A stretch of 51,539 nt of DNA. It comes from Solirubrobacter phytolaccae (GTDB taxonomy: Bacteria > Actinomycetota > Thermoleophilia > Solirubrobacterales > Solirubrobacteraceae). Under the pieces are notes generated by a model that saw only the letters and a program-made list of their open reading frames with translations, did no database searches and was not told the DNA's origin. The stretch's first letter is position 1; every line of letters begins with the position of its first letter. The DNA is taken from positions 1 through 51,539 of the forward strand of contig NZ_JAPDDP010000052.1 in assembly GCF_027587195.1 (NCBI RefSeq). The letters run 5' to 3'. Below are positions 23,461-51,539 of the stretch, piece by piece. The position numbers and the translations under genes are program-made.

Positions 23461-23617
23461 GGGAGAGCTCCTGAGTCGGTTCCGCACTTCAGGACCGGCT
23501 TCCTGCCGAGCCCTGCGGGGGACAACCGAACCCTTTCGCCCGCGACTCAGCGCGAGGTGACCGGCTCGTTGCCGATTGGTTGCGCGCGTGGACCGATTCG
23601 GCCCAGGAATGAGCGAA

Positions 23618-24310
23618 TCAGGTCTTCGGCGGCCGGCAGGCCGGCGGCAGCAGCGGAGCGGACTCCGGGGAGACCACGAGCTTCTCGCCCGGGACGAGCT
23701 CGGCCTTGCACCACGCGTACGTGTACGTGTCGAAGTGGACGACCGCCCGGAACGGGTAGCCGAGCGCGCCGGCCATGTTGCGCTTGCCCGAGGAGATCGG
23801 GGTGGTCTGGATGAAGCAGTTGAAGACGCCGATCGGGCCGCTGGTCGGCGTGCCCTCGGCGCGTTCGCACGTCGGCGGGGCGGTGACCTGCTTGATCTCG
23901 CCACTCGCGGAGCGTGCCTTCGCGTCCGCGTACATGTCGGTCTGCATCTTGTCCATCAGCTGCGTCCGGGCGGCTTCGACCTCGGCGGCGCTCGCGCCGT
24001 CGGCCGGCCGCAAGGCGAGTCCCTCGCCGGTCTTCGCCGCCTGGGCCTTGTTGATGCGCGCGACGTTCTCCTGCCGCACGCGCTCCTTGAACGCGGCGTA
24101 GTCGGCCGCGTACTGGTCCTTGCTGGAGTCGATCCGCGGGACCATGATCGCGAGCCCGATGCCGACGATGACGGCGCCGACGAGGCTGTAGAGCCCGATC
24201 TTGCGCCACGGCACGGGCGGGATCCGGACGTCGCGCGGCGGCGTCCAAATATGCAGCCAGGCGCCGAGGATCTCGAAGGGGTTGGCCTTCTGCTCGGGTG
24301 CTTGCTGCAC
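23618..24310 (-). CDS. Single-pass membrane protein, unknown function
   Basis: About 230 residues from GTG 24310 (TTG 24319 also possible). A ~45-residue cytoplasmic segment with NPFEILGAWLHIWTPP precedes one membrane helix (KIGLYSLVGAVIVGIGLAIM). A charged coiled-coil-like stretch (YAAFKERVRQENVARINKAQ) and an outer domain with three or four cysteines follow. No recognised enzymatic motif. Divergent from the eCIS DUF4157 gene with an 81-bp spacer, so a functional link is possible but unsupported. The start has no Shine-Dalgarno; CATTAT (24321-24326, minus strand) lies 10 nt upstream. The preceding 23461-23617 gap shows only the ribosome site of the giant secreted gene. Confidence 0.8.
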   Translation of the reverse strand: MQQAPEQKANPFEILGAWLHIWTPPRDVRIPPVPWRKIGLYSLVGAVIVGIGLAIMVPRIDSSKDQYAADYAAFKERVRQENVARINKAQAAKTGEGLALRPADGASAAEVEAARTQLMDKMQTDMYADAKARSASGEIKQVTAPPTCERAEGTPTSGPIGVFNCFIQTTPISSGKRNMAGALGYPFRAVVHFDTYTYAWCKAELVPGEKLVVSPESAPLLPPACRPPKT

Positions 24311-24354
24311 GTCGCACAAGATAATGCGTGCACGGCTGGACGCCCAATCGGCTC

Positions 24355-24384
24355 TTGCGCGCTTAACAGAAGGACACGTATCCT
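24355..24384 (+). promoter_or_regulatory. Promoter of the DUF4157-AAA eCIS genes (leaderless)
   Basis: TTGCGC (24355-24360), an 18-bp spacer and TATCCT (24379-24384), with the GTG start 7 nt later at 24392. This predicts a transcript starting at the start codon. The main eCIS operon at 44 kb has the same hexamer-to-GTG arrangement. Confidence 0.5.
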
Positions 24385-24391
24385 CGAAGGC

Positions 24392-24937
24392 GTGAGTAGC
24401 GATCCGCAGCGCCTTCACGAGCACGAGAAGCCGCGGGCCCCGAAGCCCGAGGAGCAGCGGGAGGACGCGGCCGCCCCGCTGCACAACCTCGTCTCCAACG
24501 TCGGCAACCGGGCGTTCGGCGGCGCGATCGCGGCCCGCCAGGGCGCGGGGATCACGGAGGGCGGCCAGGTCCACTCGTCCGTGCAGTCCAAGATCGACTC
24601 CACGCGCGGCGCCGGCCAGAACCTCGACGGCGGCGTGGCCAACAAGCTCTCGCCGCAGCTCGGCGACCTGTCGGATGTCCGCGTCCATACCGGCGACTAC
24701 TCGAACGACCTCAACCACGCGGTGTCCGCGAAGGCGTTCGCGACGGGCTCCGACGTCTACTTCGGCAAGGACCAGTACAAGCCGGGCACGTCGGACGGCG
24801 ACAAGCTGATCGCGCACGAGCTCGCCCACGTCGTCCAGCAGCGCGGCGCGCCGACCAGCGGGCCGCTGACCGTCTCGAATCCGGGCGACGCCATGGAGAA
24901 CGAGGCGGATTCTGTGGCGGACAAAGTCTCTCAGTGA
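24392..24937 (+). CDS. eCIS-associated DUF4157 metallopeptidase-like protein
   Basis: 181 residues from GTG 24392. A polar, disordered N-terminus (~60 residues) precedes a DUF4157 (eCIS core) domain at about 90-175. It includes LGDLSDVRVHTGD, AFATGSDVYFGKDQY and the HExxH zinc motif HELAHVVQQ with His142, Glu143 and His146, then ENEADSVADKV. DUF4157 is the commonest non-structural domain of extracellular contractile injection system loci; proposed roles are effector, effector-processing or cargo adaptor. Here it is short and carries no obvious toxin domain. Its TGA overlaps the GTG of the AAA+ ATPase by 4 bp. Confidence 0.92.
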   Translation: MSSDPQRLHEHEKPRAPKPEEQREDAAAPLHNLVSNVGNRAFGGAIAARQGAGITEGGQVHSSVQSKIDSTRGAGQNLDGGVANKLSPQLGDLSDVRVHTGDYSNDLNHAVSAKAFATGSDVYFGKDQYKPGTSDGDKLIAHELAHVVQQRGAPTSGPLTVSNPGDAMENEADSVADKVSQ

Positions 24938-26913
24938 CAGAGATCAGCTTTGGTTTCATCGACCGTCGCGTGATGGCGGCGGTCGAGCGCGTCGCGGCGT
25001 CCGATCCCGACCCGGGCGATCCGTTCCGGGGCCTGTACATCTCCGACGAGGTCGCGCTGCGGCTCTCGCACGGCGAGGGCGAAGGCTCGGTGGACTCCGA
25101 CGGGCGACTGCAGGAAGTGGTGCGCGCGCTCGGGCTGGACCTGCTCGAGGCCGCCGTGCTCGCGGTGTGCTCCGCGACCGAGCTCAACCCGCGCTACGGG
25201 CGGCTCTACGCCTACCTGCAGGACGACGTCACGCGCAAGCTGCCGTCACCGCGCCTGGTCGGCCAGCTGCTCGAGGGTGAGGGGCTGACGCCCGCCGACG
25301 TGATGGTCGCGTTCGACGCGGCCGGGCGCCTGCGCTCGCTCGGCGCGCTGAAGCTGCTCGGGGACGCGCAGACGCCGCTCGCGGAGCGCCCGATCAAGAT
25401 CGCCGACCGGCTCGCGGCCGTGCTCCTCGGCGGTCGCATGGACGAGTCGCCGCAGCCCACGCGGCTGCGCCTGATCGACATGCCCGCGCACGCCCCGGGC
25501 CGGGCCGAGGCGGTCGAGATGATTGCCGCGCTGCTGGCGCGCGAGTCGCACCTGCCGATCGTCCTGGCCGGACCGGACGCCGACACGCTGATCGCGACCG
25601 CCGTCGGCCGCCCGCTGGTCGCCGCGCACGTGCGCGACCTGACCGACAAGGACGTGATGGCCGAGGCCGCGCTGATCAGCGCGCTCGAGGACCGGCCGAT
25701 GATCTTCGAAGGGCTGGAGGACGTCGAGCCGGGCGACCGCGCGCGGATCCTGCGGGCGATCGAGGCCCGGCCGGAGCGGACGGTCCTCGCCGCCCCGACG
25801 CGCACCGCGGCGCTCGCGCTCGGGGAGCGCACCGTGCTGCTGGTCGAGGCCGGCCCGCCGTCGTTCGCGGAACGCCGCCAGGCGTGGGCGGACCTGACCG
25901 GCGTCGCCGCGACCGAGGACGTCGCCGCCAAGTTCCGGCTCTCGATGACGCAGATCATCGAGGCGGCCGAGGTGGCGCGGCTGTCCGCGATCGCCCGCGG
26001 GGCCGAGGTGCCGGAGCTGAGCGACCTCGACGCCGGCGCGCGCCAGGCCTCCTCCTCCAAGCTCGGCGAGCTCGCCGCCCGCCTCCCGCCCGGCTACAAG
26101 TGGGAGGACCTCGTCGTCCCGCCCAAGCAGACGGAGCAGCTGCGGTCGATCAGCGCCTACCTGCGCCACCGCGACCGCGTGCTCAGCGAGTGGGGCTACG
26201 AGAAGACGGTCTCCCGCACCCAGGGCCTGAAGGTCCTGTTCGCGGGCGAGTCCGGCACGGGCAAGACGATGGGCTCGCAGGTGATCGCGGCCGAGCTCGG
26301 CCTGGAGATCTTCCGCGTGGACCTCGCGACCACGGTCTCCAAGTACATCGGTGAGACCGAGAAGAACCTGGACCGGATCTTCGGCGCCGCCGAGGGCTCG
26401 AACGCGATCCTCTTCTTCGACGAGGCCGACGCCCTGTTCGGCAAGCGCTCGGAGACCAGCGACTCGCACGACCGCTACGCGAACATCGAGGTCGCCTACC
26501 TGCTCCAGAAGATGGAGGGCTACCCGGGCGCGGTGATCCTCGCGACGAACTTCCGCCGCAACATCGACGACGCCTTCATCCGCCGCCTGGACTTCGTGAT
26601 CGACTTCCCGTTCCCGGAGAAAGAGGACCGCCGGCGCATCTGGCGCAAGGTGCTCCCGCCCGAGGCGCCGCTCGCGGACGACGTCGACCTCGACTTCCTC
26701 GCCGAGAAGTTCAAGCTCTCCGGCGGCGCGATCCGCAACTGCTCGCTAGCCGGCGCCTTCGAGGCCGCCGACGACGACTCCCCGATCGGCATGCGGCACC
26801 TGGTCCGCGCGGTCGCGAACGAGTACGGCAAGCAGGGCCGCCTGACCCTGGAAGCCGACTTCGGGTCCTTCCACGAGGTCATCAAGGTCGGCGCCCGCGC
26901 GAACGGGCACTGA
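24934..26913 (+). CDS. eCIS AAA+ ATPase (Afp15/Pvc15-like)
   Basis: 659 residues from GTG 24934 (GTGA overlap with the DUF4157 gene). The N-terminal ~190 residues include the winged-helix-type region typical of this ATPase group. A degenerate first ATPase-like module (200-330) follows, and a complete AAA+ domain from about 400. Walker A GESGTGKT is at 438-445, Walker B ILFFDEAD at 492-499, sensor 1 Asn in ILATNFRRN, and arginine finger region DAFIRRLDFVIDFPFP. Such ATPases are universal in eCIS clusters and are thought to assist particle assembly or cargo loading. The C-terminal SGGAIRNCSLAGAF is the sensor-2 helix. Confidence 0.93.
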   Translation: MTEISFGFIDRRVMAAVERVAASDPDPGDPFRGLYISDEVALRLSHGEGEGSVDSDGRLQEVVRALGLDLLEAAVLAVCSATELNPRYGRLYAYLQDDVTRKLPSPRLVGQLLEGEGLTPADVMVAFDAAGRLRSLGALKLLGDAQTPLAERPIKIADRLAAVLLGGRMDESPQPTRLRLIDMPAHAPGRAEAVEMIAALLARESHLPIVLAGPDADTLIATAVGRPLVAAHVRDLTDKDVMAEAALISALEDRPMIFEGLEDVEPGDRARILRAIEARPERTVLAAPTRTAALALGERTVLLVEAGPPSFAERRQAWADLTGVAATEDVAAKFRLSMTQIIEAAEVARLSAIARGAEVPELSDLDAGARQASSSKLGELAARLPPGYKWEDLVVPPKQTEQLRSISAYLRHRDRVLSEWGYEKTVSRTQGLKVLFAGESGTGKTMGSQVIAAELGLEIFRVDLATTVSKYIGETEKNLDRIFGAAEGSNAILFFDEADALFGKRSETSDSHDRYANIEVAYLLQKMEGYPGAVILATNFRRNIDDAFIRRLDFVIDFPFPEKEDRRRIWRKVLPPEAPLADDVDLDFLAEKFKLSGGAIRNCSLAGAFEAADDDSPIGMRHLVRAVANEYGKQGRLTLEADFGSFHEVIKVGARANGH

Positions 26914-30555: not shown

Positions 30556-30559
30556 CCGC

Positions 30560-31861: not shown

Positions 31862-31867
31862 TACGGT
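31862..31867 (+). promoter_or_regulatory. candidate -10 (TACGGT) for the transporter operon
   Basis: TACGGT ends 8 nt before GTG 31876, again the leaderless spacing. It lies in the short divergent gap between the binding-protein gene and the permease gene and would drive the long rightward transporter operon. Confidence 0.4.
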
Positions 31868-31875
31868 CTGCCGAC

Positions 31876-34690: not shown

Positions 34691-34717
34691 AATAGTTCGC
34701 GCCGAGGGCATCGAGGG

Positions 34718-38608: not shown

Positions 38609-38610
38609 CG

Positions 38611-39890: not shown

Positions 39891-40222
39891 GTGTTCTGCT
39901 GGTACGTCAACTCGACCTTGCGGCTGCCGTACTTGCAGGTCACGCGACCGTTGATCTCGGTGGAGATCGTCGTGCGCTTCTCGTTGCAGGCGTACTTGCG
40001 GACCTTGGAGACGCAGCGGCCGCTGACGCCCTTCTTGGTGCGGCACTTGTGGAAGGCCAGCGCGACCTTGCTCGCTTCACCGCAGCTGACCTTGGTGGCC
40101 TTGAGCGAGGTGAAGTAGCCCGACCCCGGGTACTTCGGCGGCGTGCAGGTGGCGGCCTGCGCGGACGCGGGCAGGGCCACGAGGAGGGCGAGTGCTGCGA
40201 CAAGACCGGCGAGACGTTTCAT
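39887..40222 (-). CDS. Small secreted six-cysteine protein
   Basis: 111 residues. ATG 40222 has GAAGGG upstream. Signal peptide MKRLAGLVAALALLVALPAS with cleavage near AQA-AT. The mature ~85 residues hold six cysteines, enough for three disulfides, and many Lys/Arg (SLKATKVSCGEASKV, FHKCRTKKGVSGRC, VRKYACNEKR). It looks like a compact basic domain exported to the wall or medium. Function unknown; conserved placement between two SGNH genes suggests a role in the same envelope-modification process. Confidence 0.85.
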   Translation of the reverse strand: MKRLAGLVAALALLVALPASAQAATCTPPKYPGSGYFTSLKATKVSCGEASKVALAFHKCRTKKGVSGRCVSKVRKYACNEKRTTISTEINGRVTCKYGSRKVELTYQQNT

Positions 40223-40232
40223 TGGTGGCCCT

Positions 40233-41225
40233 TCAGTAGGTGAAATCCTGCCCGAGGCGCGCCAGGACCGTCTCCGCAAGCAGACCGGCACCCTCGTCAT
40301 TGAGGTGGATCCCATCAGCATTGCGAACGATGCGGCGTCGCCCGTCGATCGTGATCGCGTCCTCGTAGCCGCGGGGCGCGAACATCGGCACGGTGTCGAG
40401 GATCCGGACCTGGCTCGCCCACGGCTGCGCCGCGACCTTGACCGCCGCGTTGACGACGCGGTTGATCTTGGCGCGGTCGGCGTCGCGGGCCGTCGGGATC
40501 GTGATCCAGTACACGCGGGCGTTCCCCGCCTGGCGGTAGGTGTCGGCCATCCGGCGCGCGCGGTTGGCGTACAGCGCCGCCCACTCGGCCGAGCAGCACT
40601 CGACCTCCTGGCCCGCGCCCGTCTCGATCGGGAAGCCCTCGTTGGCGCCGATGAACACGACGACCGCGTCCGGCGTGCGGCGCTTGACCTGCTGCGTGGA
40701 CAGCTCGCCCCAGTCGAGCAGGAACGACTTGGAGATGCCGGTGCCGAGCCGCACGTCGCGCTCGACCTTCACGCCCTTGTCGCTCAGCGCGGTCGCGAGC
40801 TTCGCGTCCAGCGGCTGCGCCATCGAGTCGCCCGTCACGAGCAGCGTGCGCAGGCGCTCCTTCTGGGGCGGCGCGGCGCCGATCGTCGCCGGCTCGAACG
40901 CGTCCTTGGTGACCGGCGGCAGCTCGCCCCCGGCCTGCGCGGCGACGTTCTCGAACCCGCCGCCGCTCTCGAGCTTCTCGTCCGGCGAGAGGAACGCGAG
41001 CGCGTCGTCGGCGGCGTCCGCGAACGGCAGCGCGTCCGCGATCTCCCCCGCGGGGTTGCCGAAGAACAGCACGACGTCGCGGTCCCAGCCCGGGTCCATC
41101 CGCTCGCCCTGGTTGCGCAGCCCGTCGCCCTTGAAGACCACCAGCAGCGCGGCGCAGACGAGCAGCGCGAGCACGCCGTCGCGCGCCCGGAACCGGGTCA
41201 GCCCGTTGCGGTCGAAGCGGTTCAT
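40233..41225 (-). CDS. DUF459/SGNH-family membrane-anchored protein
   Basis: 330 residues from ATG 41225 (TTG 41243 would add six). One membrane anchor (about 18-32) precedes an extracellular SGNH domain: Ser134 in LLVTGDSMAQPL, Asn in FIGANEGFPI, and the Asp/His pair Asp304/His307 in DGIHLNDEG. It directly follows the MBOAT gene, as AlgJ/AlgX or PatB follow AlgI/PatA in polysaccharide O-acetylation. The likely role is therefore to accept acetyl from the MBOAT and pass it to a glycan. Confidence 0.9.
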   Translation of the reverse strand: MNRFDRNGLTRFRARDGVLALLVCAALLVVFKGDGLRNQGERMDPGWDRDVVLFFGNPAGEIADALPFADAADDALAFLSPDEKLESGGGFENVAAQAGGELPPVTKDAFEPATIGAAPPQKERLRTLLVTGDSMAQPLDAKLATALSDKGVKVERDVRLGTGISKSFLLDWGELSTQQVKRRTPDAVVVFIGANEGFPIETGAGQEVECCSAEWAALYANRARRMADTYRQAGNARVYWITIPTARDADRAKINRVVNAAVKVAAQPWASQVRILDTVPMFAPRGYEDAITIDGRRRIVRNADGIHLNDEGAGLLAETVLARLGQDFTY

Positions 41226-41247
41226 GAGGGAGTCGTCAGGCAAGGCT

Positions 41248-42633
41248 CTAGAAGCGGAAGTAGATGAAGGGGGCGACGCCTTGGCTGGACACGGTCGCGG
41301 CGACCAGCGCGATGACCACCGCGAGCCCCGCGCCCAACAACACCGGGTTCGTGCGCTCGATGCGCACCTGCACCCGCTCGACCGTCCGCTCGGGCACGAG
41401 CTGCAGCCCGATCACGGCCGCGATCATCAGCGCGACCGGCACCGTGAACAGCGTGGCAGGCCCGGGCTCGACCATACGCTCCAGGAAGTCGCCGAAGATG
41501 TCCAGGTTCGGCGAGCGGAACAGGATCCAGCCGAAGACCACGAGATGGAAGGTCACAGCCCAGCGCACCCACGCCGGGATCTTCACCCGCCCGCGCCACG
41601 CGTGCTCGATGCACAGGCACGCGCCGTGGAAAAAGCCCCACAGCACGAACGGCCACGCGGCGCCGTGCCAGAGCCCACCGAGGACCATCGTGAGCATCAG
41701 GTTCCGGTAGGTCTTCCACTTGCCCTTGCGGTTGCCGCCGAGCGGGATGTAGAGGAAGTCGCGCAGGAAGCGACTCAGCGTCATGTGCCAGCGGCGCCAG
41801 AAGTCGCTGAAGCCGGTCGCGCGGTAGGGCGAGCGGAAGTTCTGCGGGAACACGTAGCCCATCAACAGCGCGAGCCCGATCGCCATGTCCGTGTAGCCGG
41901 AGAAGTCGCAGTAGATCTGGGCGGTGTAGCCGTAGGCGGCGAGCCACAGGTCCGGCGCGGCGTACGCGTCGGGCACCGCGAACACCGGGTCCACCACTTC
42001 CCGCGCGAGCGTGTCGGCGATCGCGAGCTTCTTGATCAGGCCGAGCGCGATCAGCGCCAACCCGCTGCCCACGGCGACCTTGCGCGGGTCCGGCGGCTGC
42101 TGGAGCTGCGGGAGGAACTCGCGCGCCCGGACGATCGGGCCGGCCACCAGGTGCGGGAAGAAGCTCAGGTAGATCGCGACGTCGACGGTCGACGCCGGCT
42201 CCACCAGCCGGCGCTTGACGTCGACCACGTACGAGATCGCCTGGAACGTGAAGAACGACACGCCGACCGGCAGCGCGATCGTCAGCAGCGGCAGCGGCAA
42301 CGAGAACGGCCCGAGCGCGCGATCCCAGCTGTCGACGAAGAACGCGTAGTACTTGAAGACGCCCAGCACGAGCAGGTCGAGCGCCACCGCCACGCCCAGG
42401 ATCCACGACCGCGCCCGCTCGCCCTCGGTACGTGCGATCAGCACCGCCGCCGCCTGGTTCCCGACCGTGATCGCGCCCAGCAGGACGCAGAACCGCCAGT
42501 CCGCGTAGCCGTAGAAGACGTAGCTCGCGACGATGATGAACGGCTTCCACAGCGCCTGTCGCTTCATCAGCGCCCACGAGAGAACGAGGACGACCGGGAA
42601 GAACAGCGCGAACTGGACGGTCGGGAAGAGCAA
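41248..42633 (-). CDS. MBOAT O-acyltransferase (AlgI/PatA-like)
   Basis: 461 residues from TTG 42633, which gives the usual family N-terminus (MLFPTVQFALFF). About ten membrane helices. Family signatures: FDFWRRWHMTLS-type region at 276-290 (His283), RDFLYIPLGGNRKGKWKTYR and the catalytic His323 in GGLWHGAAW. Moves acetyl groups from the cytoplasm to an extracellular acceptor. It lies 18 bp after the methyltransferase gene and 22 bp before the DUF459 start, inside a leftward six-gene operon. Confidence 0.95.
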   Translation of the reverse strand: MLFPTVQFALFFPVVLVLSWALMKRQALWKPFIIVASYVFYGYADWRFCVLLGAITVGNQAAAVLIARTEGERARSWILGVAVALDLLVLGVFKYYAFFVDSWDRALGPFSLPLPLLTIALPVGVSFFTFQAISYVVDVKRRLVEPASTVDVAIYLSFFPHLVAGPIVRAREFLPQLQQPPDPRKVAVGSGLALIALGLIKKLAIADTLAREVVDPVFAVPDAYAAPDLWLAAYGYTAQIYCDFSGYTDMAIGLALLMGYVFPQNFRSPYRATGFSDFWRRWHMTLSRFLRDFLYIPLGGNRKGKWKTYRNLMLTMVLGGLWHGAAWPFVLWGFFHGACLCIEHAWRGRVKIPAWVRWAVTFHLVVFGWILFRSPNLDIFGDFLERMVEPGPATLFTVPVALMIAAVIGLQLVPERTVERVQVRIERTNPVLLGAGLAVVIALVAATVSSQGVAPFIYFRF

Positions 42634-42651
42634 GCGGGAGCAGGGTACGAA

Positions 42652-44064
42652 TCAGGGTTCGAGCAAGAACAAACGCGCCAGCTCGACGAGGTTGCGCTCA
42701 AGGTCCTCGAGCCCGATCTCGAAGCCCACCGCGGCCTTCAGGTCGGCCTGGATCGCCGCACGGTCGCGCGTGCCGTCGAGCAGGGTGATCAGCACTCGCG
42801 CCGCCGGCTCCTCCATCCGCACCCGCATGTAGGCGAGCGAGACCATGTCGGCGCCGCGCGCCGCCTGCCAGCGCGCCAACCTCGACGCGGTCGGCCGCTC
42901 CCCCGGCTCCTCCGCCGCGCGCAGCGGCCCGGCGTGCGGCATCAGCCGCTCACGCCGGAAGCCGTCGAGCAGCGCCTCGGCCAGCGCCATCGGCTCCGCC
43001 CCCAGCTCCTCGCGCAGCGCCTCGAAGCTCACCGCCCGCGGGCGCCGCGCGTCGAGCACCCGGAACGCGTCCGCGGTCAGCCCGACCTCGAACGGCTCGG
43101 CGTTCGGACGCACCGCCCAGTGCAGCCGCTGCGCCTGCACGGGCGAGGCGTCGGCGGAGGCGTCGCGCCCCGCGTGGCAGATCACGCTCTGACGGAAGTG
43201 GCGTGCCGTCAGCACGTCGCTCAGGTGCTCGAACGCGACCCGGTCGCCGTCGGCGAGGTTCCACACCTGCGGCTCGACCCCGTCCGGGAGCATCTCCGAG
43301 CGCAGGCTGAACAGGTCCGCCTCGCCCACGTACCCGAGCCCGTGGCCGGCGGCGTGCTCGGCGAACTCCCCGAACCAGCGCGGCGTCCACGAGTCCCCCA
43401 GGTCGTCGTGGACGAGCCGGTAGCTCGGCGCGTCGGCGAGCACCGGGACCTCGCGGCCGAGCAGCGCGCCGTAGGTGTCGGCGTCGCTGATCCGGTGCTC
43501 CTTGAGGAAGATGTAGAGCTCCTGCGCCTTCTCGGCCTTCGCCAGCAGCGTCTCCTCCTTGCGGGCGTGCCACAGGCCGGCGTCGCGCAGCATGCGCCGG
43601 AAGTAGCCGCCGGGCTGCGCGTTGAACGACACGTACGCGATCCCGGCGGGCGTCAGCGAGGCCTTGATCGTCGCGAGCAGCGCGTCGTCGGCCTCCTCGG
43701 GCATCCAGCCGTAGACGCCGTGGGCGATCACGTAGTCGAACTGCCCCAGCGCCCCGGTCGTCAGGTCACGGACGTCCGCCTGGTGGAACTCGGCGTTGGT
43801 CAGGCCGATCTCCTGCACGGCTTGTTGCGCCTCGGCGATCGGGGTCGCGGCGAGGTCCACGCCCACCGCCTTCAGGCCCGGCGTGGCCGCGGCCATGGCG
43901 AGCATGTTCCCTCCAGCGCCACAGCCGATCTCCAGCACCCGCGCGGAGAACGGGTCCGGTGGCTCGATCCCGTGCAGCATCGCGACCGTCGCCAGACGAT
44001 CGGGATGGGTCTGCGCATACGGGAAGTTGGAGTAACGTACCTCGTCGTAGATGGTCTCGGGCAT
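42652..44064 (-). CDS. SAM-dependent methyltransferase with regulatory domain
   Basis: 470 residues from ATG 44064 (GTG 44082 possible). The class I Rossmann domain spans about 40-200, with motif I VLEIGCGAGG (43-52), motif II region VGVDLAATPI and motif IV FDYVIAHGVYGWMP. The middle holds a methyltransferase regulatory-type domain (about 215-330), and the C-terminal third is a PqqD/winged-helix-like helical region. Substrate unknown. First gene of the leftward operon with MBOAT and SGNH genes and divergent from the eCIS operon, 51 bp apart. It could modify a glycan precursor or, less likely, an eCIS component. Confidence 0.88.
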   Translation of the reverse strand: MPETIYDEVRYSNFPYAQTHPDRLATVAMLHGIEPPDPFSARVLEIGCGAGGNMLAMAAATPGLKAVGVDLAATPIAEAQQAVQEIGLTNAEFHQADVRDLTTGALGQFDYVIAHGVYGWMPEEADDALLATIKASLTPAGIAYVSFNAQPGGYFRRMLRDAGLWHARKEETLLAKAEKAQELYIFLKEHRISDADTYGALLGREVPVLADAPSYRLVHDDLGDSWTPRWFGEFAEHAAGHGLGYVGEADLFSLRSEMLPDGVEPQVWNLADGDRVAFEHLSDVLTARHFRQSVICHAGRDASADASPVQAQRLHWAVRPNAEPFEVGLTADAFRVLDARRPRAVSFEALREELGAEPMALAEALLDGFRRERLMPHAGPLRAAEEPGERPTASRLARWQAARGADMVSLAYMRVRMEEPAARVLITLLDGTRDRAAIQADLKAAVGFEIGLEDLERNLVELARLFLLEP

Positions 44065-44102
44065 CAGGCGGGCAATCTTCACACCGTTGGGCCCGCCGCA
44101 GG

Positions 44103-44108
44103 TAGGGT
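44103..44108 (+). promoter_or_regulatory. candidate -10 (TAGGGT) of the main eCIS operon
   Basis: TAGGGT ends 7 nt before GTG 44116 with no Shine-Dalgarno, predicting a leaderless first gene. The layout matches TATCCT-N7-GTG at 24379-24392, upstream of the other eCIS genes. No good -35 is seen in the 51-bp divergent gap. Confidence 0.45.
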
Positions 44109-44115
44109 GCCTGCC

Positions 44116-44970
44116 GTGCTGACGATCAACGTGCCGCTCAACACGATGCTGGCGGACCTGGACGAGACGCTCCGGGACCTGCTGAAGGAAGAGCTCGAGC
44201 GGCACGGCTTCGAAGGCATCGACATCGAGTTCGACGCCCCGTCACGCGACTGGTCCGGGCAGCTCTCCAAGCCGACCGTGAACCTGTTCCTCTACGACCT
44301 GCGCGAGGCCGAGAACCTCCGCGCCAGCGAGTGGACGCCGACCAAGAGCTCCAGCAACGGCCGCCGGGTGGAGGTCCGCCCGCCGATGGTCATGGAGTGC
44401 TCGTACGCGGTGACGGCGTGGACGCAGGCCGTCGAGGACGAGCACCGCCTCCTCAGCCAAGTCCTCGCGATCCTGTTCGCCTACCCGCAGCTGCCCGAGG
44501 AGCGCCTGAACGGGCGCCTCATGAACGGCTCGCAGCCGTGGCCCATCAAGGGCCGGATCGGGCAGGGCAAGGGCGAGAAGTCGGACTTCTGGAGCGCGGT
44601 CGGCGGCCAGTACAAGGTGTCACTCGACTACGTGGTGCGGCTGGCCGTCGAGTCCGGCGCCCGCCGCGAGCGTGGCCCGGAGGTCCGTACGCAGACCATC
44701 CGCACGCAGCTGACCGACTCGCCGCGCACGGTGCTCGAGATGCACCGCTCCACGGGGCGGGTCCAGGACGAAAAGGGCAACCCGGTGTCCGACGTCTGGG
44801 TCACCTTGCCCGACCTGGGCGCGTGGGCCTCTTCGACGCCGCAGGGGACCTTTCGCTTCGACCGTTTGCCGCCGGGCCTGCACCGGGTACTGGCCCGCAG
44901 CGCCGACGGCCGCGAGGCCGACGGACTGCTCCAAGTCCCCGGCCCTGGCGCCGATCTAGTCATCGCCTGA
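44116..44970 (+). CDS. eCIS DUF4255 protein (Pvc16/Afp16-like sheath-terminator) with C-terminal beta-sandwich
   Basis: 284 residues from GTG 44116. The N-terminal DUF4255/Pvc16_N domain (about 1-190) has NTMLADLDETLRDLLKEELE, SKPTVNLFLYDLREAENLR and YAVTAWTQAVEDEHRLLSQV. In related particles this protein caps the tube and sheath and sets particle length. Residues ~215-284 are a carboxypeptidase-regulatory-like domain (STGRVQDEKGNPVSDVWVTL, RFDRLPPGLHRVLA). First gene of the main eCIS operon. Confidence 0.92.
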   Translation: MLTINVPLNTMLADLDETLRDLLKEELERHGFEGIDIEFDAPSRDWSGQLSKPTVNLFLYDLREAENLRASEWTPTKSSSNGRRVEVRPPMVMECSYAVTAWTQAVEDEHRLLSQVLAILFAYPQLPEERLNGRLMNGSQPWPIKGRIGQGKGEKSDFWSAVGGQYKVSLDYVVRLAVESGARRERGPEVRTQTIRTQLTDSPRTVLEMHRSTGRVQDEKGNPVSDVWVTLPDLGAWASSTPQGTFRFDRLPPGLHRVLARSADGREADGLLQVPGPGADLVIA

Positions 44971-45061
44971 ACATTGATGAACACGCTCTCCGGCACGGAT
45001 TGCCCAAATGGCTGCCTGTCAGCCTCTGGCCTTCCCGATCGATCCGCAGCAAGGTGTGGCC

Positions 45062-45430
45062 ATGGCGATTGAGCCCGGCCCCCGCGTCCTGCTCGGAAAC
45101 TTGGGACCGATCATGCGAATGGGCATGAATCGCGTCCTGATCGAGGAGGGCTGTGAAGTGGTCGGTCATGAGGACCGGCCCAGCGCCATCATCGGGGCCG
45201 CGCATCGTCTGCGCCCCGACATCGTGGTGCTCGATCTGGACAACGGGTCCTCGCATGAGCTGGCACAGCTCGTGCGCGGCGCGTCTCCGGAAACCACCGT
45301 CGTGCTCTGGGCCCGCGAAGAGGACCTCATGGAGGTTCTCGAGCCGGTCTGGAATACATCTCGCCTCGTCGCCGTCCCGATTGTCGAGCGACTGCGAAGC
45401 GAACTGAGCGGCCAGCACGTCCACGAGTGA
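45062..45430 (+). CDS. Degenerate response-regulator receiver protein in the eCIS operon
   Basis: 122 residues from ATG 45062 (AAGG about 8 nt upstream; ATG 45008 would add 18 residues). Receiver-like fold only, no output domain: RVLLGNLGPIMRMGMNRVLI, RPDIVVLDLDNGSSHELAQL, TTVVLWARE and LVAVPI. The phosphoacceptor-position Asp of VLDLD remains. However, the N-terminal acidic pair is replaced (GNLG), the conserved Thr/Ser position is Trp, and the conserved Lys before Pro is missing. Phosphorylation signalling is therefore doubtful. The 91-bp gap before it shows nothing else. A structural or regulatory adaptor for the particle is possible. Confidence 0.8.
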   Translation: MAIEPGPRVLLGNLGPIMRMGMNRVLIEEGCEVVGHEDRPSAIIGAAHRLRPDIVVLDLDNGSSHELAQLVRGASPETTVVLWAREEDLMEVLEPVWNTSRLVAVPIVERLRSELSGQHVHE

Positions 45431-45439: not shown

Positions 45440-47002
45440 ATGCCCACGTACCTGACTCCCGGCGTTTACGTCGAGGAAGTCCCGTCCGCGAACAAGCCGA
45501 TCGAGGGCGTGAGCACGTCCGTCGCCGCGTTCGTCGGGCTGGCCCCGGGCGGCCCTGTGAACACGCCGATGCGGATCTCGAACTGGACTCAGTTCGCGAA
45601 GATCTACGGCGACCCGAACGAGCCCGACAACGGCCCGTTCATGGATGGCGCCTACCTGGCGCACAGCGTCTACGGCTTCTTCCAGAACGGCGGCACGACC
45701 TGCTGGATCGTGCGTGTCGGTGACGACGGCAGCTCCAACGGCCGCGCGGCGACGCCGCGTGCCGCGCTGCCCGCCGCGACCGACGCGTCCGTCGAGGCGT
45801 TCGCCGCCGTCGCGCTGAACGCCGGCAAGGAAGAGGTCACCGTCGAGGTCTCCGAGGAGCCCACCGCCGGTGAAGGCGCCGACAAGACCTACACGGTCAA
45901 GGTCACGCAGGGCTCCGAGAACGAGGAGTTCACGGGACTGTCGACCAAGAAGGGCCGCACGAACCTGGCCACCAAGGTCAACGCGCAGTCCAAGCTGATC
46001 AAGATCGAGGAGACCGGCGCCGCCCTGCCGGACGCGCAGCGCACGCCGGCCACCGGCGTGTTCAAGCTCTCCACGCCGTCGATCGACCCGGGCAAGGTCG
46101 AGGGCAGCCACTTCGCCGGCGACGTCGCCCGGCGCAAGGGCCTCGGCGGCCTCGCCGCCGTCGACGAGATCACGATGATCGTCGCGCCGGACATCGTCAA
46201 CCTCCTCGGGGATGACGGCGACGACACGGCGTTCCGTGACCTCCAGGGCAAGATGATCGCCCACGCCGAGGGCTCGGGCGACCGCATGGCGATCCTCGAC
46301 ACCCCGCCGGACCTGCTCCCGCAGGACGTGCTCGAGTGGCGCCTGAACACCGCCGGCTACGACTCGAAGTTCGCGGCGCTGTACTACCCGTGGATCGAGG
46401 TCCAGGATCCGCTGACCAACAAGCCGATCATGGTTCCGCCGTCCGGCCACATGGCCGGCCTGTGGTGCCGCGTGGACGGCACCCGCGGCGTCCACAAGGC
46501 TCCGGCCAACGAGGTCGCGCTGGGCGCGAACGGCCTGGGCTTCCAGGTCACGCACGCCGAGCAGGGCGGCCTGAACAAGGTCGGCATCAACTGCATCCGC
46601 GCCTTCCCGGGCCGCGGCATCCGCGTCTGGGGCGCCCGCACCCTGTCGAGCGACCCCGAGTGGCGCTACATCAACGTCCGCCGGCTCTTCAACTTCGTGA
46701 GCGAGTCGATCATGGAGGGCACGCAGTGGAGCGTGTTCGAGCCCAACGATGAGAAGCTGTGGATTCAGCTGCGCATCGCGGCGGAGAACTTCCTCACGCG
46801 CGTGTGGAACGACGGCGCCCTGTTCGGCTCCACGCCGGGCCAGGCGTTCTACGTCAAGTGTGACTCCGAGACCAACCCGCCCGAGGTCATCGAGGCCGGG
46901 CAGGTCATCTGTGAGATCGGCATCGCGCCGGTCAAGCCCGCCGAGTTCGTGGTCTTCCGCCTGTCGCAGTTCAGCGGCGGCGAAGGCTCCTCCATCAGCT
47001 AG
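45440..47002 (+). CDS. Contractile tail sheath protein (eCIS/phage tail sheath family)
   Basis: 520 residues. ATG 45440 has AAGGAG just upstream. The N-terminus MPTYLTPGVYVEEVPS with VSTSVAAFVGLAPGGPV is the classical sheath opening, followed by FFQNGGTTCWIVRVG. A ~100-residue inserted beta-domain (about 105-215, TVEVSEEPTAGEGADKTYTV) decorates the outside. The conserved C-terminal core has GFQVTHAEQGGLNKVGINCI, GIRVWGARTLSSDPEWRYIN and RRLFNFVSESIMEGTQW, ending ...SQFSGGEGSSIS. The sheath contracts to drive the inner tube through a target membrane. One sheath paralog is visible here. Confidence 0.97.
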   Translation: MPTYLTPGVYVEEVPSANKPIEGVSTSVAAFVGLAPGGPVNTPMRISNWTQFAKIYGDPNEPDNGPFMDGAYLAHSVYGFFQNGGTTCWIVRVGDDGSSNGRAATPRAALPAATDASVEAFAAVALNAGKEEVTVEVSEEPTAGEGADKTYTVKVTQGSENEEFTGLSTKKGRTNLATKVNAQSKLIKIEETGAALPDAQRTPATGVFKLSTPSIDPGKVEGSHFAGDVARRKGLGGLAAVDEITMIVAPDIVNLLGDDGDDTAFRDLQGKMIAHAEGSGDRMAILDTPPDLLPQDVLEWRLNTAGYDSKFAALYYPWIEVQDPLTNKPIMVPPSGHMAGLWCRVDGTRGVHKAPANEVALGANGLGFQVTHAEQGGLNKVGINCIRAFPGRGIRVWGARTLSSDPEWRYINVRRLFNFVSESIMEGTQWSVFEPNDEKLWIQLRIAAENFLTRVWNDGALFGSTPGQAFYVKCDSETNPPEVIEAGQVICEIGIAPVKPAEFVVFRLSQFSGGEGSSIS

Positions 47003-47036: not shown

Positions 47037-47483
47037 ATGCCGGCCAACGATAAGGAAGCACACGTTCCGATTTGGTTCACCCTGTCCATCGGGGGCGCCG
47101 AGGCGGCTGGGTTCTTCAAGGAGGCCACGGGCTTCGACTCGGAGTCCGAGGTCACCGAGATCAAGCGGTCGCTGCCCAACGGGCGCACCGACGTGATCAA
47201 GGCGATGGGCAACACCAAGTGGGGCGACATCGAGCTCAAGCGCGGCGTCGATCAGGACAAGACGCTGTGGAACTGGCGCAAGCTGATCGTCGACGGCAAG
47301 CTCAAGGAAGCCCGCAAGGACTGCACCATCACGATGATGGACTACGAGCTGAACCCCGTGGTCACGTACTCCATCATCAACGCGTGGCCGAAGAAGTACA
47401 CGGGCGTGGGCCTGAAGGCGGACTCCAACGAGGTCGCCGTCGAGGGCATCACGCTCTGCCACGAGGGCTTCGAGATCAAGTAA
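47037..47483 (+). CDS. Contractile system inner tube protein (gp19/Hcp-like)
   Basis: 148 residues, standard tube-protein length, from ATG 47037 (AAAGGA upstream). Family pattern: WFTLSIGGAEAAGFFKEATG, the charged strand EVTEIKRSLPNGRTDVIKAM, KWGDIELKRGVDQDKTLWNW and GITLCHEGFEIK. Hexameric rings stack into the tube that carries cargo. Next to the sheath gene, 34 bp away. Confidence 0.96.
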   Translation: MPANDKEAHVPIWFTLSIGGAEAAGFFKEATGFDSESEVTEIKRSLPNGRTDVIKAMGNTKWGDIELKRGVDQDKTLWNWRKLIVDGKLKEARKDCTITMMDYELNPVVTYSIINAWPKKYTGVGLKADSNEVAVEGITLCHEGFEIK

Positions 47484-47499: not shown

Positions 47500-47874
47500 G
47501 TGAAGTCGGAATACGCGTTCACGCTCCCGCGGGGGCTTGTCGACAGCGCCGGTGGTGTGCACCGCGAGGGCACCATGCGCTTGGCGACGGCCCGCGACGA
47601 GATCGAGCCGCTGCGCTCGGTGGAGGTCCGCCAGAACGAGGCGTACCTCACCGTGCTGCTGCTGGCTCGCACCGTCACCCGGGTCGGGGAGTTCACCGAG
47701 ATCACCCCCGAGCTGATCGAGAGCTTGTTCGCGGCCGACTTCGACCACCTCCAGCGCCTCTACGAGCGGATCAACTCCGACGGCGAGGCGGTGGGGGTGG
47801 TGGCCTGTCCGGCCTGCTCCAACCAGTTCGAAGTGGACCTGACGGAGATAGAGGACGGGCGCCTGGGGGAATGA
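47500..47874 (+). CDS. eCIS small protein, tail-assembly chaperone-like
   Basis: 124 residues from GTG 47500. N-terminal YAFTLPRGLVDSAGGVHREG and MRLATARDEIEPL resemble the tail assembly proteins found after tube genes in eCIS loci. Then EVRQNEAYLTVLLLARTVTR and FAADFDHLQRLYERIN follow, with a C-terminal CPAC pair that could bind metal only as a dimer. Stop overlaps the next ATG as ATGA. Probably helps fold or load the tape-measure or tube; unproven. Confidence 0.8.
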   Translation: MKSEYAFTLPRGLVDSAGGVHREGTMRLATARDEIEPLRSVEVRQNEAYLTVLLLARTVTRVGEFTEITPELIESLFAADFDHLQRLYERINSDGEAVGVVACPACSNQFEVDLTEIEDGRLGE

Positions 47875-48026
47875 CGAGGCCGTCCCCTCCTGAACTGCTG
47901 GAGGAGACGGCCCGGCTCGCGTATCACTTCCACTGGCCGCTCGACACGATCTTGGACCTGGAACACGCCGACCGGCGCAAGTTCCTGCGCGAAGCGGACG
48001 CGCTCGCATATCCGTACGAGGGATGA
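47871..48026 (+). CDS. 51-residue eCIS protein (DUF6760-like)
   Basis: ATG 47871 overlaps the previous TGA; stop at 48024-48026. The sequence has ELLEETARLAYHFHWPLDTI followed by LDLEHADRRKFLREAD. The YHFHWP...LEH.DRR pattern is that of the very small protein found between tube and downstream genes in actinobacterial eCIS operons, which I recall as DUF6760. It is easily missed by gene callers because of its length. Role unknown, perhaps an assembly factor. Confidence 0.82.
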   Translation: MTRPSPPELLEETARLAYHFHWPLDTILDLEHADRRKFLREADALAYPYEG

Positions 48027-48034: not shown

Positions 48035-51000
48035 ATGGCCGACGACACCCCGCCCCAGAAGCGCCCACCCGTGAAGATGGGGTTGCGCGTGGTTGCCCGC
48101 CACAGCGCCGGCCGCCACGGCGGTCGGGCCCTCGCGCGTGACGTGATCGACGCGCGCGCGCCGAAGCACCTCGACGCCTCCACCCGGCTCGCGCGTCATC
48201 CCGAGCCGGCTTCGTCTTATGAGGCCCCGGCGCCGCCGGCGCCTCCTGCCCCGCCCGCGCCCCCGGCGCCGCCCGTCGCTGCCGCGCCCGCGCCCGTCGC
48301 GGAAGTCGCGCGCGAAGCTGCCCCGGCGCCCGCCGCCCCTGCTGCTCCGGCCGCTCCCGCCGCGCCGCCCGCGGGTGGCCCCGACTACGCGAAGGCCGGC
48401 ATCAGCGACTTCGCCGCCAACTGGCTCTTCGGCGACCAGAGCGCCGCCCAGGACGGCCTCGTGCCGATGAACATCGCCGAGAAGATGCAGGAGCCCACGA
48501 AGGAGCAGCGCCTCGCGCGCTTCCTCGCCCGTGGCGGCCTGGAGCGCTCCCGCGGCGCCCGCATCGTCGAAGGCGCCGCCGCCGGCCCGATCTCCTCCGA
48601 GGAGCTCGGCATGGGCGACTCCGAAGAAGGCGACTCAGGCGCGAGCCTCAAGCGCCTCTCCCGCAAGCCGATCGAGCCGTCGGCGTCCGACGCGCCCGCG
48701 TCGTCAGGCCCGGCGTCGCTCGCACGCACGCCGGCCGACACGCCGTCGTCTTCAGCCTCGTCGGGCTCCGCCGCGCCGTCGGCCGCGTCGAGCTCCACCC
48801 CGTCCTCGTCGCTCGCGCGCACGCCCGCCGACACGCCGTCTTCGCCCGCAGCCTCGTCGAGCTCCGCCGCGCCGTCGTCGCCGTCCAGCTCCGCCCCGTC
48901 GTCGCCGTCGCTCGCGCGCACACCGGCCGACGCGCCCCCGGCCTCGTCGAGCTCCGCCTCGCCGTCGTCGTCGGCGCCCACCTCCTCCGGCCCGGCCTCG
49001 ATCGCGCGGACGCCCGCCGACGCCGCGCCGTCGAGCTCGGCTCCGGTCGCGCCCACCCCGGGCGAGGACGCGCCGACGCCTTCGCCGGCCTCCGTCGCGC
49101 GCACTCCGAACGAGGACGCGCCGTCGTCCTCCTCGATCGCGCGCACCCCCGCCGACACGCCCAGCGCGGCGCCGACCTCGTCGGCCCCGGCCTCGATCGC
49201 GCGCACCCCCGCCGACGACAACCCGTCGACGCCCGCCGCGCCCACGTCGTCGGCGCCCACCTCGTCGCCCAGCCCGGCACCCGCCGCGCCGACCTCGTCA
49301 GGTCCCGCCTCGGTGGCGCGCACGGCCGCCGACGAAACGCCCTCCACGCCGACCTCGTCGGGCCCGGCCTCGGTCGCGCGCACGGCCGCCGACGAAACGC
49401 CCTCCACGCCGACCTCGTCGGGCCCGGCTTCGATCGCGCGCAGCGCCGTCGCCGACACGTCCGCCTCGTCGAGCCCGGCACCTGCCACGTCGACTTCGTC
49501 GTCTCCGGCCTCCGTCGCGCGCACGGCCGCCGGCGACACGTCTTCCACACCGACTTCGTCAGGCCCGGCCTCGATCGCGCGCACGCCCGCCGACGACGCG
49601 TCCAGCCCGACACCCGCCGCGCCGACCTCGTCAGGCCCGGCCTCCGCCGCGCGCACGGCCGCCGACGACACGCCCGCCGCGCCGACCTCGTCGGCCGCGG
49701 CCTCGATCGCGCGCACCGCCGACGACGCGTCCAGCCCGACACCCGCCGCGGCGACCTCGTCAGGCCCGGCCTCCGTCGCGCGCACGGCCGCCGACGACAC
49801 GCCCGCCGCGCCGACTTCGTCGGCCCCGGCCTCGGTCGCGCGCACCGCCGCCGACGACACGTCCGCCTCGCCCAGCCCGGCACCCGCCGCGCCGACTTCG
49901 TCGGCCCCGGTCTCCAGCGCGCGCACGGGCACCGACGCGCCCTCCACGACCTCGTCGGGCCCCGCCTCGGTGGCGCGCACGCCCGCCGACGACGCCCCGT
50001 CGCTGCCGAGCGCGGCGCCGGCCGGGCCTGTGAAGCTCGCTCGCAAGGCCGCGGAACCCGTCGAGGCGCCGGCGCGACCGGTCATGAAGGTCGCGCGCGT
50101 CGCGGAGGCTCCGCTGCGTCCGGTCGAGCCGGCACCCGCGCCAGTCGCCGAGCCGGAGCCGGCCGCCGCGCCCGTCGTCGCCGACGACGCGCCCGAGGAG
50201 GCGCCGCGCCGCGGGATCTTCCGCCGCTTCATCGACGCCGTGTCCGGCACCGAGCCGCAGGACGAGAACCCGACCCTCGCGCGCACCGAGGACACGCCCG
50301 CCGAGCCCGCGGCCAGCGGGCCGACGCTCGCGCGCACGGAGGACACGCCCGACGGGGACACGCCCGCGGCCAGCGAGCCGACGCTCGCACGCACCGCCGA
50401 CACGTCCGCACCCGCGGCCGGTGGCCCGACGCTCGCGCGGTCGGCCAGCACCCCCGCCGCCAGCTCGGCAGCCGCAGGCAACGGCCCGGCCCTCGCACGC
50501 TCGGCCGGTGGCAACGCCGCCGGCACAGGCACCACGTCGGCACCCGCGGCCAGCGGCCCGACACTCGCGCGGACGGCCAGCAGCACCGCCGCCGCCGGCA
50601 CAGGCACGGCGCCGGCACCCGCGGCCGGTGGGCCGACGCTCGCTCGGACGGCCGCGGCTCCCGCGGCCGGTGGCCCGACGCTCGCTCGGACGGCCGGTAC
50701 GCCCGCGGCCGCCGGCCCGGCGCTCGCACGCTCGGCCGACACGTCGTCGGCGCCTGCCGGCGGTGGCCCGACCCTTGCGCGCTCGACCGACCCTGGCGCG
50801 ACGGAGCCGACCCTGGCTCGCTCCGCGTCCGCCGCCGGCGAGGCCATGGCCGCCGATTCGACGTTGGCGCGCTCGGCACAGGCCGACGGCGAAGACGCCG
50901 CGGGGAACGATCTCCCCGCGGACGGGCCGAGCCTGTCGCGCGCCGCGCAGTCCGATGACGCCGACGAGGCGACGCGCTCCGCCGACGCGGCGCCCAGCCT

Positions 51001-51539
51001 CGCGCGCACGGCCTCGACCGACACATCCGCTCCGGCCGGCAGCACGGCCTCACCCGCCGCGCCGAGCCTGGCCCGGACCGCCGCCCCGGCAACGGCCTCA
51101 CCCGCCGCGCCCAGCCTCGCCCGGACCGCCGACGCAGCCCGCGGCACGGCCTCATCCGCCGCGCCCAGCCTCGCCCGGACCGCCGACGCAGCCCGCGGTG
51201 CGGCATCGTCCGCCGCGCCCAGCATCGCCCGGACCGCCGCCCCGGCGACGACATCGTCCGCCGCGCCCAGCCTGGCTCGGGCCGCCGCCCCAGCGACGGC
51301 ATCGTCCGCCGCACCCAGCCTCGCCCGCACGGCCGACACGGCCGCAACGACGAGCGGCGCGGCGTCGCCCGGCCCCAGCCTCGCGCGAGCGGCCGACACA
51401 GCCGCGGCCGACGCCCCGTCCACTGCGCCCTCGGCCGACGTGGACTCCGGCCCGACGCTCGCGGCTCCGCTCGCGCCGTCGCTGGCCCGTGCCGCGGCCG
51501 CGGCGGCTCCGCCCGCGCCCGCTTCGATGCCGTCCGGGG
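48035..51539 (+). CDS. Giant Ala/Pro/Ser-rich eCIS protein with ~40 LAR-motif repeats, open at window end
   Basis: ATG 48035 opens a frame of at least 1168 codons with no stop before the window edge, 8 bp after the small DUF6760-like gene. Residues 1-65 are basic (VKMGLRVVARHSAGRHGGR). Residues ~65-115 are a Pro/Ala linker. A short ordered patch with GISDFAANWLFGDQ lies at ~122-140, and a helical stretch with EKMQEPTKEQRLARFLARGG follows. From ~225 onward the chain is low-complexity with a recurrent [S/T/A]-[L/I/V]-A-R-[T/S/A] core every 15-20 residues, about 40 copies. One structured-looking island, RRGIFRRFIDAVSGTEPQ, lies near 725-742. No signal peptide or known domain. Position suggests a particle component, cargo or adaptor. 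Confidence 0.88.
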   Translation, partial: MADDTPPQKRPPVKMGLRVVARHSAGRHGGRALARDVIDARAPKHLDASTRLARHPEPASSYEAPAPPAPPAPPAPPAPPVAAAPAPVAEVAREAAPAPAAPAAPAAPAAPPAGGPDYAKAGISDFAANWLFGDQSAAQDGLVPMNIAEKMQEPTKEQRLARFLARGGLERSRGARIVEGAAAGPISSEELGMGDSEEGDSGASLKRLSRKPIEPSASDAPASSGPASLARTPADTPSSSASSGSAAPSAASSSTPSSSLARTPADTPSSPAASSSSAAPSSPSSSAPSSPSLARTPADAPPASSSSASPSSSAPTSSGPASIARTPADAAPSSSAPVAPTPGEDAPTPSPASVARTPNEDAPSSSSIARTPADTPSAAPTSSAPASIARTPADDNPSTPAAPTSSAPTSSPSPAPAAPTSSGPASVARTAADETPSTPTSSGPASVARTAADETPSTPTSSGPASIARSAVADTSASSSPAPATSTSSSPASVARTAAGDTSSTPTSSGPASIARTPADDASSPTPAAPTSSGPASAARTAADDTPAAPTSSAAASIARTADDASSPTPAAATSSGPASVARTAADDTPAAPTSSAPASVARTAADDTSASPSPAPAAPTSSAPVSSARTGTDAPSTTSSGPASVARTPADDAPSLPSAAPAGPVKLARKAAEPVEAPARPVMKVARVAEAPLRPVEPAPAPVAEPEPAAAPVVADDAPEEAPRRGIFRRFIDAVSGTEPQDENPTLARTEDTPAEPAASGPTLARTEDTPDGDTPAASEPTLARTADTSAPAAGGPTLARSASTPAASSAAAGNGPALARSAGGNAAGTGTTSAPAASGPTLARTASSTAAAGTGTAPAPAAGGPTLARTAAAPAAGGPTLARTAGTPAAAGPALARSADTSSAPAGGGPTLARSTDPGATEPTLARSASAAGEAMAADSTLARSAQADGEDAAGNDLPADGPSLSRAAQSDDADEATRSADAAPSLARTASTDTSAPAGSTASPAAPSLARTAAPATASPAAPSLARTADAARGTASSAAPSLARTADAARGAASSAAPSIARTAAPATTSSAAPSLARAAAPATASSAAPSLARTADTAATTSGAASPGPSLARAADTAAADAPSTAPSADVDSGPTLAAPLAPSLARAAAAAAPPAPASMPSG
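48715..51500 (+). repeat. LAR-motif repeat array inside the giant eCIS protein
   Basis: I count about 42 motif copies. The first block (48.7-50.0 kb) is mostly S-[LIV]-A-R-T-[PA]-A-D, separated by Ser/Thr/Pro/Ala spacers such as PTSSGPAS. Two divergent copies near 50.03 and 50.09 kb (KLARKA, KVARVA) precede the island at 50.2 kb. The second block (50.27-51.5 kb) is mostly [TS]-L-A-R-[TS]-A with GPTLARTA and AAPSLARTA flanks. In the last part spacing tightens to 16-18 residues. Neighbouring units at 49.31-49.43 kb and 51.1-51.35 kb are nearly identical, indicating recent duplication. Confidence 0.92.

Follow-up and report, generated by a model that had tools for sequence, protein, structure and literature searches.

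We analysed a stretch of 51,539 nucleotides from Solirubrobacter phytolaccae (contig NZ_JAPDDP010000052.1, hereafter the window), which is the whole of contig C117 in a 7.74-Mb genome of 169 contigs. Its last gene, here called X, encodes a long chain rich in short LAR motifs within a locus for an extracellular contractile injection system (eCIS, or CIS for the systems in general). X belongs to the conserved components of class IId-type CIS loci, and we hold with moderate confidence that it is their tape-measure protein, a part reported absent from them. This assignment draws on conservation, gene order, profile homology of a chaperone gene, the frame relation between that gene and the next, a run of G where they meet, the predicted disorder of X and a shared C-terminal helix. 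The locus is assigned to class IId by the likeness of its sheath to that of Streptomyces and by published papers, not by a tree.

The decisive context of X is the pair of genes directly upstream, namely a chaperone gene and a DUF6760 gene overlapping it in the -1 frame. The locus reads sheath, tube, chaperone, DUF6760, X, tube 2 (initiator), LysM hub and spike. On contig C28, where X ends, 10 bases separate its stop from tube 2, which is followed by LysM hub, spike, gp25, baseplate J and tail protein I. X thus occupies the slot of a tape measure, after the tube and the tail-assembly chaperones and before the hub and initiator genes; in T4, the length determinator gp29 stands directly before the tube cap gp48 and the tube initiator gp54. 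The class IId parts are all present (sheath, two tubes, LysM hub, spike, gp25, baseplate J and tail protein I), together with a Pvc16 cap, an AAA+ ATPase and a CisA-like membrane protein.

In a profile search the 124-aa gene at 47500 hit phrog_508 (tail assembly chaperone; Table 1), as did 26/26 of its homologues scanned; it had no Pfam or NCBIfam match. Searching the PDB with the chaperone profile gave three matches at E 0.7-0.87, and T4 gp26 and gp51, neither of which is in phrog_508, gave hhalign probabilities of 15 and 6, over a CPxC stretch. The 51-aa gene that follows matches DUF6760 (Pfam PF20546) with E 2e-5 and 25 bits, just under the curated cut-off of 27. A sheath-profile scan provided the best 80 named loci of 561 relatives (L076-L155), on which the following counts are based. 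Relative to the chaperone gene, DUF6760 is in the -1 frame in 80/80 cases, made up of the window and 79 of these loci. Moreover, at least five G stand at the end of the chaperone gene in 78/79 loci (GGGGGAA in 72, GGGGGGA in 4, GGGGGGG in 2; L084 is the exception). This run goes against codon usage, as 14% of glycine codons are GGG and 11% of glutamate codons are GAA; in gene bodies, 28,131 nt contained 17 runs of at least five G.

We propose that the junction be read as a putative programmed -1 frameshift. Passages of PMC5506516 propose GGGGGAA as slippery site in the tail assembly genes of corynephage phi16, and passages of PMC3091744 describe P2-type phages making E and E+E' between the tube and tape-measure genes. 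The G run and the overlap could also be explained by start-codon coupling only, X being an unrelated low-complexity passenger of the operon; in most loci DUF6760 has an ATG or GTG that overlaps with the stop of the chaperone gene, and GGGGG could serve as a weak ribosome-binding site. However, eight junctions (L082, L083, L084, L111, L114, L122, L125 and L151) are without ATG, GTG or TTG and seven of them still have the G run, which in L114, L125 and L151 reads GGGGGGA and is followed by TAG, and X keeps its position and C-terminal helix across phyla. We consider this explanation quite improbable. With a frameshift at the junction, DUF6760 and its neighbour gain a likely role as a frameshift-linked chaperone pair. 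In the open-licence PubMed Central literature DUF6760 is unmentioned, and eCIS and "tail assembly chaperone" co-occur only in a reference list.

X itself begins 8 bp past the stop of the DUF6760 gene and is open from 48035 to 51538 (+), 1168 codons up to the window end, as an earlier reading of the letters (the sequence-only reading) had described; it continues on C28. The last 35 bases of C117 are identical to bases 13-47 of C28 with the frame kept, and the preceding 12 bases on C28 differ. On C28 the frame covers bases 2-574, its stop ending at 574, which gives about 190 codons, 15 of them duplicated or replaced at the contig edge. By arithmetic, 3505 + 524 bases make 1343 codons in frame, and the nearest congener has 1345 aa. 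Pfam gave no family, no toxin or enzyme domain and no PF13699/DUF4157 in either part. Extension past the contig end, as that reading had suggested, yielded the stop, and the toxin or DUF4157 imagined for the C-terminus of this copy was rejected. The strict motif [ST][LIV]AR[TS] occurs 32 times in 1168 residues, against a mean of 0.09 and a maximum of 2 in 1000 shuffles, and the looser [STPA][LIV]AR[TSA] 37 times, with a median spacing of 20 and a mean of 25.6; the enrichment first noticed is real, and the spacing is looser than the 15-20 residues then given. The tripeptide [LIVM][AS]R has 47 copies, which take up 47 of the 69 arginines, and four more on C28. Full-length congeners of 1345, 1289, 1252 and 1404 aa hold 57, 54, 49 and 52 copies of the loose motif, at median spacings of 18-20.

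The disorder prediction that had been called for was run with AlphaFold2 (5 aligned sequences), and pLDDT was <50 for 1090/1168 residues. Short helices were predicted at residues 117-120, 125-131, 156-165 and 727-736. The last of these falls in PRRGIFRRFIDAV, the ordered island already seen between two motif styles, which is kept in the genus; aromatic residues are confined to this island and to residues 62-163. The frame behaves as coding sequence: over 194 N-terminal codons, substitutions against a congener number 15/7/53 at codon positions 1/2/3. An untranslated frame arising from GC-rich repeats or from assembly might be suspected, as several other frames in the window are also long and contigs often end in X (28/75 loci), but it is at odds with the third-position bias, the conserved ends and the uninterrupted homologues in 4/6 congeners. 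The motif shuffles and the substitution bias led us to reject a chance or artefact frame, which we regard as scarcely conceivable.

X-type genes, each encoding a disordered, Pro/Ala-rich chain of about 460-2000 aa with a conserved C-terminal helix, were found in class IId-type loci of Solirubrobacter, Streptomyces, Actinomadura, Amycolatopsis, Chloroflexota and Deinococcus. The sequence-only reading had rightly placed X in an eCIS operon, where CIS genes lie on both sides, but outside the normal eCIS parts; instead, X recurs regularly in class IId-type loci, within the same gene neighbourhood. The homologues it proposed to seek behind DUF6760 in related loci exist, and a gene private to one genome was rejected given those in congeners and other genera. 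The ends of X were found in 6/6 Solirubrobacter congeners, four uninterrupted and two split by contig ends. CIS_tube was matched in 20/399 genomes of the class, and 12 of 17 regions fetched round such matches in other genera have a frame ending in the X C-terminal helix; of the other five, L059 and L070 are very short contigs, L060 and L075 have other layouts, and in L066 the end looks like a diverged form.

Among the best 80 loci, the frame behind DUF6760 could be identified in 75, closed by tube 2 in 46 and not in 29. It ends in the C-terminal helix in 45/46 closed loci; in L121 the neighbouring frame does. Of the remaining five, L112 is without a DUF6760 match, and L084, L114, L125 and L151 have tube 2 directly after DUF6760, X lying between tube 2 and LysM in L084 and L114. 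Draft genomes often break in X, the contig ending before tube 2 in 28 of the 75 loci, mostly inside X. The same layout is seen in Roseiflexus RS-1 and other Chloroflexota-derived genomes. X ends as LDELxxRLxxxxTRLxRTELRxDRERIGRLRD in Streptomyces, as REELYEYFLDRFKRDLLAEREQMGHL here and as DLDALARQVYxxLKRRLAAERRR in Chloroflexota. The C-terminal helix profile of X also matches small genes that take the DUF6760 slot in Chloroflexota and Deinococcus (E 4e-5 to 0.11), and the common helix hints at a shared docking site; L184:7023-7226, L157:16659-16865 and L205:14534-14722 are among these helix-bearing genes. The Deinococcus grandis plasmid pDEGR-1 (L156:15660-19451) has a single frame of 1264 aa that joins a tube protein to an X-like chain bearing the C-terminal helix, and no chaperone or second tube match was found near the fusion. 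The PLSDB gene table, incomplete by design, does not contain X of the S. clavuligerus plasmid (L158:16786-20934), and for the D. aquaticus plasmid (L157:17763-23759) it gives only the last part of X, as a DUF4157 protein.

The form of the motif varies between lineages, and LAR is the local form of a wider phi-x-R motif that reads VQR, VAR or VSR elsewhere. In most Streptomyces X, the top enriched R-tripeptide is VQR, with 8-25 copies and up to 132 times expectation; the exceptions are L116, L138 and the wrongly framed L121. VQR/QRS was found in 2/3 Actinomadura X, VAR (11 and 31 copies) or VSR (15) in the three Amycolatopsis X and LAR/IAR/VAR in Solirubrobacter. At the threshold used, no R-tripeptide was enriched in X of L083, L086, L087, L111, L138, RS-1, L187 and L193.

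As a tape measure, X could work as follows. The chaperone and its -1-frameshift extension DUF6760 would hold the newly made, unfolded X chain, whose conserved C-terminal helix would then dock on the tube-initiator and hub proteins encoded directly downstream. Tube rings would pile up along X, guided by the spaced phi-x-R motifs (LAR here, VQR in Streptomyces) and displacing the chaperones, until the conserved N-terminal end of X meets the cap and growth ends. The number of X residues would set particle length, at about 0.17-0.20 nm per residue, because growth would stop when the N-terminal end reaches the cap. The sequence-only reading had offered a scaffold, a ruler or cargo docking as functions, and is partly supported in that a molecular ruler was one of its options.

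In a narrower form, each phi-x-R motif would dock about one tube ring, and length would be set by counting motifs on a stretched disordered chain and not by a rigid helix. With 22.6 residues per ring, as in S. coelicolor, the four full-length Solirubrobacter X (1252-1404 residues) should span 55-62 rings, against 49-57 phi-[AS]-R motifs. In Streptomyces, one motif per ring fails in that form because VQR copies number only 8-25, and we rejected it as a general rule. Such motif counting seems to us doubtful. If true, a disordered chain with counted motifs would be a new way of setting the length of a protein nanotube. A search of open-licence PubMed Central for CIS with tape measure and "intrinsically disordered" returned phage papers only.

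Particle measurements bear on length control. Passages of PMC12237407 describe the S. coelicolor particle as having 61 sheath and 60 tube layers and a uniform length of 268 nm, and its authors state that a tape-measure gene is absent; passages of two further papers likewise report no tape-measure gene in Streptomyces CIS. A published average from negative-stain images is 295 nm. Published atomic models comprise SCO4243-4248, 4252-4253 and 4260, therefore SCO4249-4251 should be X, DUF6760 and the chaperone. From gene order and from S. coelicoflavus, SCO4249 would be the X of S. coelicolor. The S. coelicoflavus X has 1355 aa in the same slot, and the sheath of that species aligns end to end, nearly identical, with 8bky, which we take to be the S. 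coelicolor sheath. In open-licence PubMed Central, SCO4249 is mentioned only apparently in the context of PhoP. Particles without sco4256-4258 are described as broadly alike, apart from a lumen that is mostly empty; these cargos are therefore unnecessary for particle structure.

Passages of PMC12998442 give lengths of 217 nm for R. castenholzii and 365 nm for D. aquatilis, together with 238 nm for C. chliarophilus, which was not used in the trend. X has 979, 877 and 909 aa in Roseiflexus-type genomes and 1830, 1850, 1535 and 1999 aa in four Deinococcus plasmids. In Streptomyces, the 1355 aa of S. coelicoflavus X stand against the 268 nm of S. coelicolor. Across three lineages, with X taken from proxy species and not from those measured, X length rises with published particle length, and the fit gives 0.17-0.20 nm per residue when 60 rings, an assumed rise of 3.9 nm and 34 nm of ends are used. 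For Deinococcus, this fit used 1999 and 1831 aa, the latter being the annotated X of D. psychrotolerans; all four Deinococcus frames, with a mean of about 1804 aa, give 0.18 nm per residue by hand. X is a candidate tape-measure gene with a shared neighbourhood in three phyla.

Several observations weigh against X as a tape measure. The three points of the length relation come from proxies and make a trend, not a test. D. grandis, where fused tube 1 and X together have 1264 aa, is out of line with the length ratio, and the 2247-aa Tme of S. davawensis, for about 200 nm, is too long for it, but belongs to another lineage. No tape-measure profile of Pfam, NCBIfam or PHROGs matches the parts of X or the relatives scanned, and a PDB search with S. 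coelicoflavus X had no match at 0.01; because no homology was found when tested, we do not claim membership in a known tape-measure family. Phage tape measures are mostly helical, unlike X with its predicted disorder. The chaperone-like gene had no tblastn match in phage records, and the model of its protein (pLDDT 67) had no significant fold match. The G run is absent from the four Deinococcus plasmids and Roseiflexus RS-1, and tube 2 stands between DUF6760 and X in some Chloroflexota and in D. aquaticus. The genus C-terminal profile matched 3/396 phylum genomes, the window's own included, and the C-terminal part of X was unmatched in 54 other genomes of the same family or order, a second search giving one weak match with stops. 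Sequence search thus finds little outside the genus, where the X family is held together by its position, its composition and a helix some 30 residues long. Finally, about 85% of 73 cargo-less S. coelicolor lumens are reported to look empty, and the proteins named in S. coelicolor preparations in main-text passages include sco4242, sco4256 and sco4251, not sco4249.

X could be a cargo or effector like Tme, the tape-measure-related effector of S. davawensis: large, mostly disordered, tied to the spike, loaded into the tube and ejected, with eCIS_core lost in this lineage. According to passages of PMC11126660, Tme is, like X, the largest gene product of its cluster, encoded upstream of the baseplate genes and mostly disordered (about 70%), and it associates with spike and initiator proteins; it has DUF4157 near the N-terminus and a C-terminal nuclease domain, and X here has neither. 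The eCIS_core domain (PF13699) lies about 100-220 residues before the end in 4/6 X relatives scanned, which supports a cargo, and a DUF4157 protein of S. lividans co-elutes with the tube initiator in passages of PMC13277306. However, Pfam revealed no catalytic domain in this X or in the scanned relatives, these relatives have just a short helix after the core, the loci retain a separate eCIS_core gene, and the chaperone pair is left unexplained. We see a cargo as possible but on the unlikely side; X can also be ruler and cargo at once. The domain is absent from X of Solirubrobacter, which has a separate eCIS_core gene, and of S. coelicoflavus, and X could have arisen from a protein with eCIS_core, the domain having been lost in actinobacteria, which have eCIS_core in a gene of its own.

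Alternatively, X could be a multivalent loading scaffold, its phi-x-R motifs binding a receptor that also reads a [VI]QR cargo leader, so that motif number sets load and not length. In agreement with this, [VI]QR precedes the core of eCIS_core proteins in 10/16 loci with Q-type X against 1/7 others, and Chloroflexota eCIS_core proteins carry repeated SIQR. Against it, the association is small and confounded by kinship, the receptor is hypothetical, and in Solirubrobacter the motifs of cargo and X differ; we judge a scaffold unlikely. A tape measure remains our preferred role for X.

The remaining features of the locus are given in Table 1. Between the AAA+ ATPase and the cap, 27000-44205 holds genes without CIS domains (a sigma factor, a sortilin-like protein, ABC transporter parts, SGNH and MBOAT proteins and a methyltransferase), and 45008-45430, between the cap and sheath genes, encodes a response-regulator-like protein below the Pfam cut-off. 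On the opposite strand, a 1587-aa frame with bacterial Ig-like domains (19144-23904, -) overlaps the start of the eCIS_core gene. After tail protein I on C28, a 1021-aa gene (L009:6517-9579) has a zinc ribbon, one hydrophobic segment and three PASTA domains. It stands in the slot where S. coelicolor has CisA and is likely a membrane anchor; we rejected it as tape measure, since with these features it looks like CisA.

Table 1. Features of the window around X and the CIS locus, with positions on the 51,539-nt stretch.
Feature	Position	Strand	Evidence or remark
eCIS_core (DUF4157) protein, separate from X	23561..24934, start approximate	+	PF13699
AAA+ ATPase	24934..26913	+	
Cap/terminator (Pvc16_N)	44158..44970, start approximate	+	
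Sheath	45440..47002	+	Phage_sheath_1 and 1C
Tube protein 1	47037..47483	+	Phage_T4_gp19
Tail-assembly-chaperone-like gene, 124 aa, CPxC near end	47500..47874	+	phrog_508 E 4.6e-11
G run GGGGGAA before chaperone stop, proposed slippery site	47864..47871, +/- a base or two	+	
DUF6760 gene, 51 aa, stop 48024-48026, proposed frameshift extension	47871..48026	+	-1 frame vs chaperone
X, LAR-repeat protein, first 1168 codons	48035..51539	+	open frame; rest on contig C28:2-574
Conserved X N-terminal region, GLRVVARHSAGRHGG...; SDFAAxWLFGD...KEQRxARFxARGGLERSRGARIVEG	48035..48640	+	six-congener alignment; predicted short helices
Island PRRGIFRRFIDAV between two motif styles, residues about 725-738	50207..50248	+	kept in genus; predicted helix 727-736

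Compared with known systems, the gene at 47500 resembles lambda G/GT and P2 E/E+E' in sitting between tube and tape measure with a -1-frame extension; unlike these, the CIS chaperone ends with CPxC, and its frameshift is proposed from sequence. The S. coelicolor slot gene, presumably SCO4249, shares the slot of X, and its motifs would be VQR, not LAR, judging from the near-identical S. coelicoflavus. X differs from phage tape measures and from Afp14 of the antifeeding prophage in being a disordered Ala/Pro/Ser/Thr chain with phi-x-R motifs and without detectable homology to them. Like lambda gpH, P2 gpT, T4 gp29 and Afp14, it stands after the tube and a chaperone pair and before the initiator and hub genes, and like phage tape measures and Afp14 it is very long, variable in length and kept at its ends.

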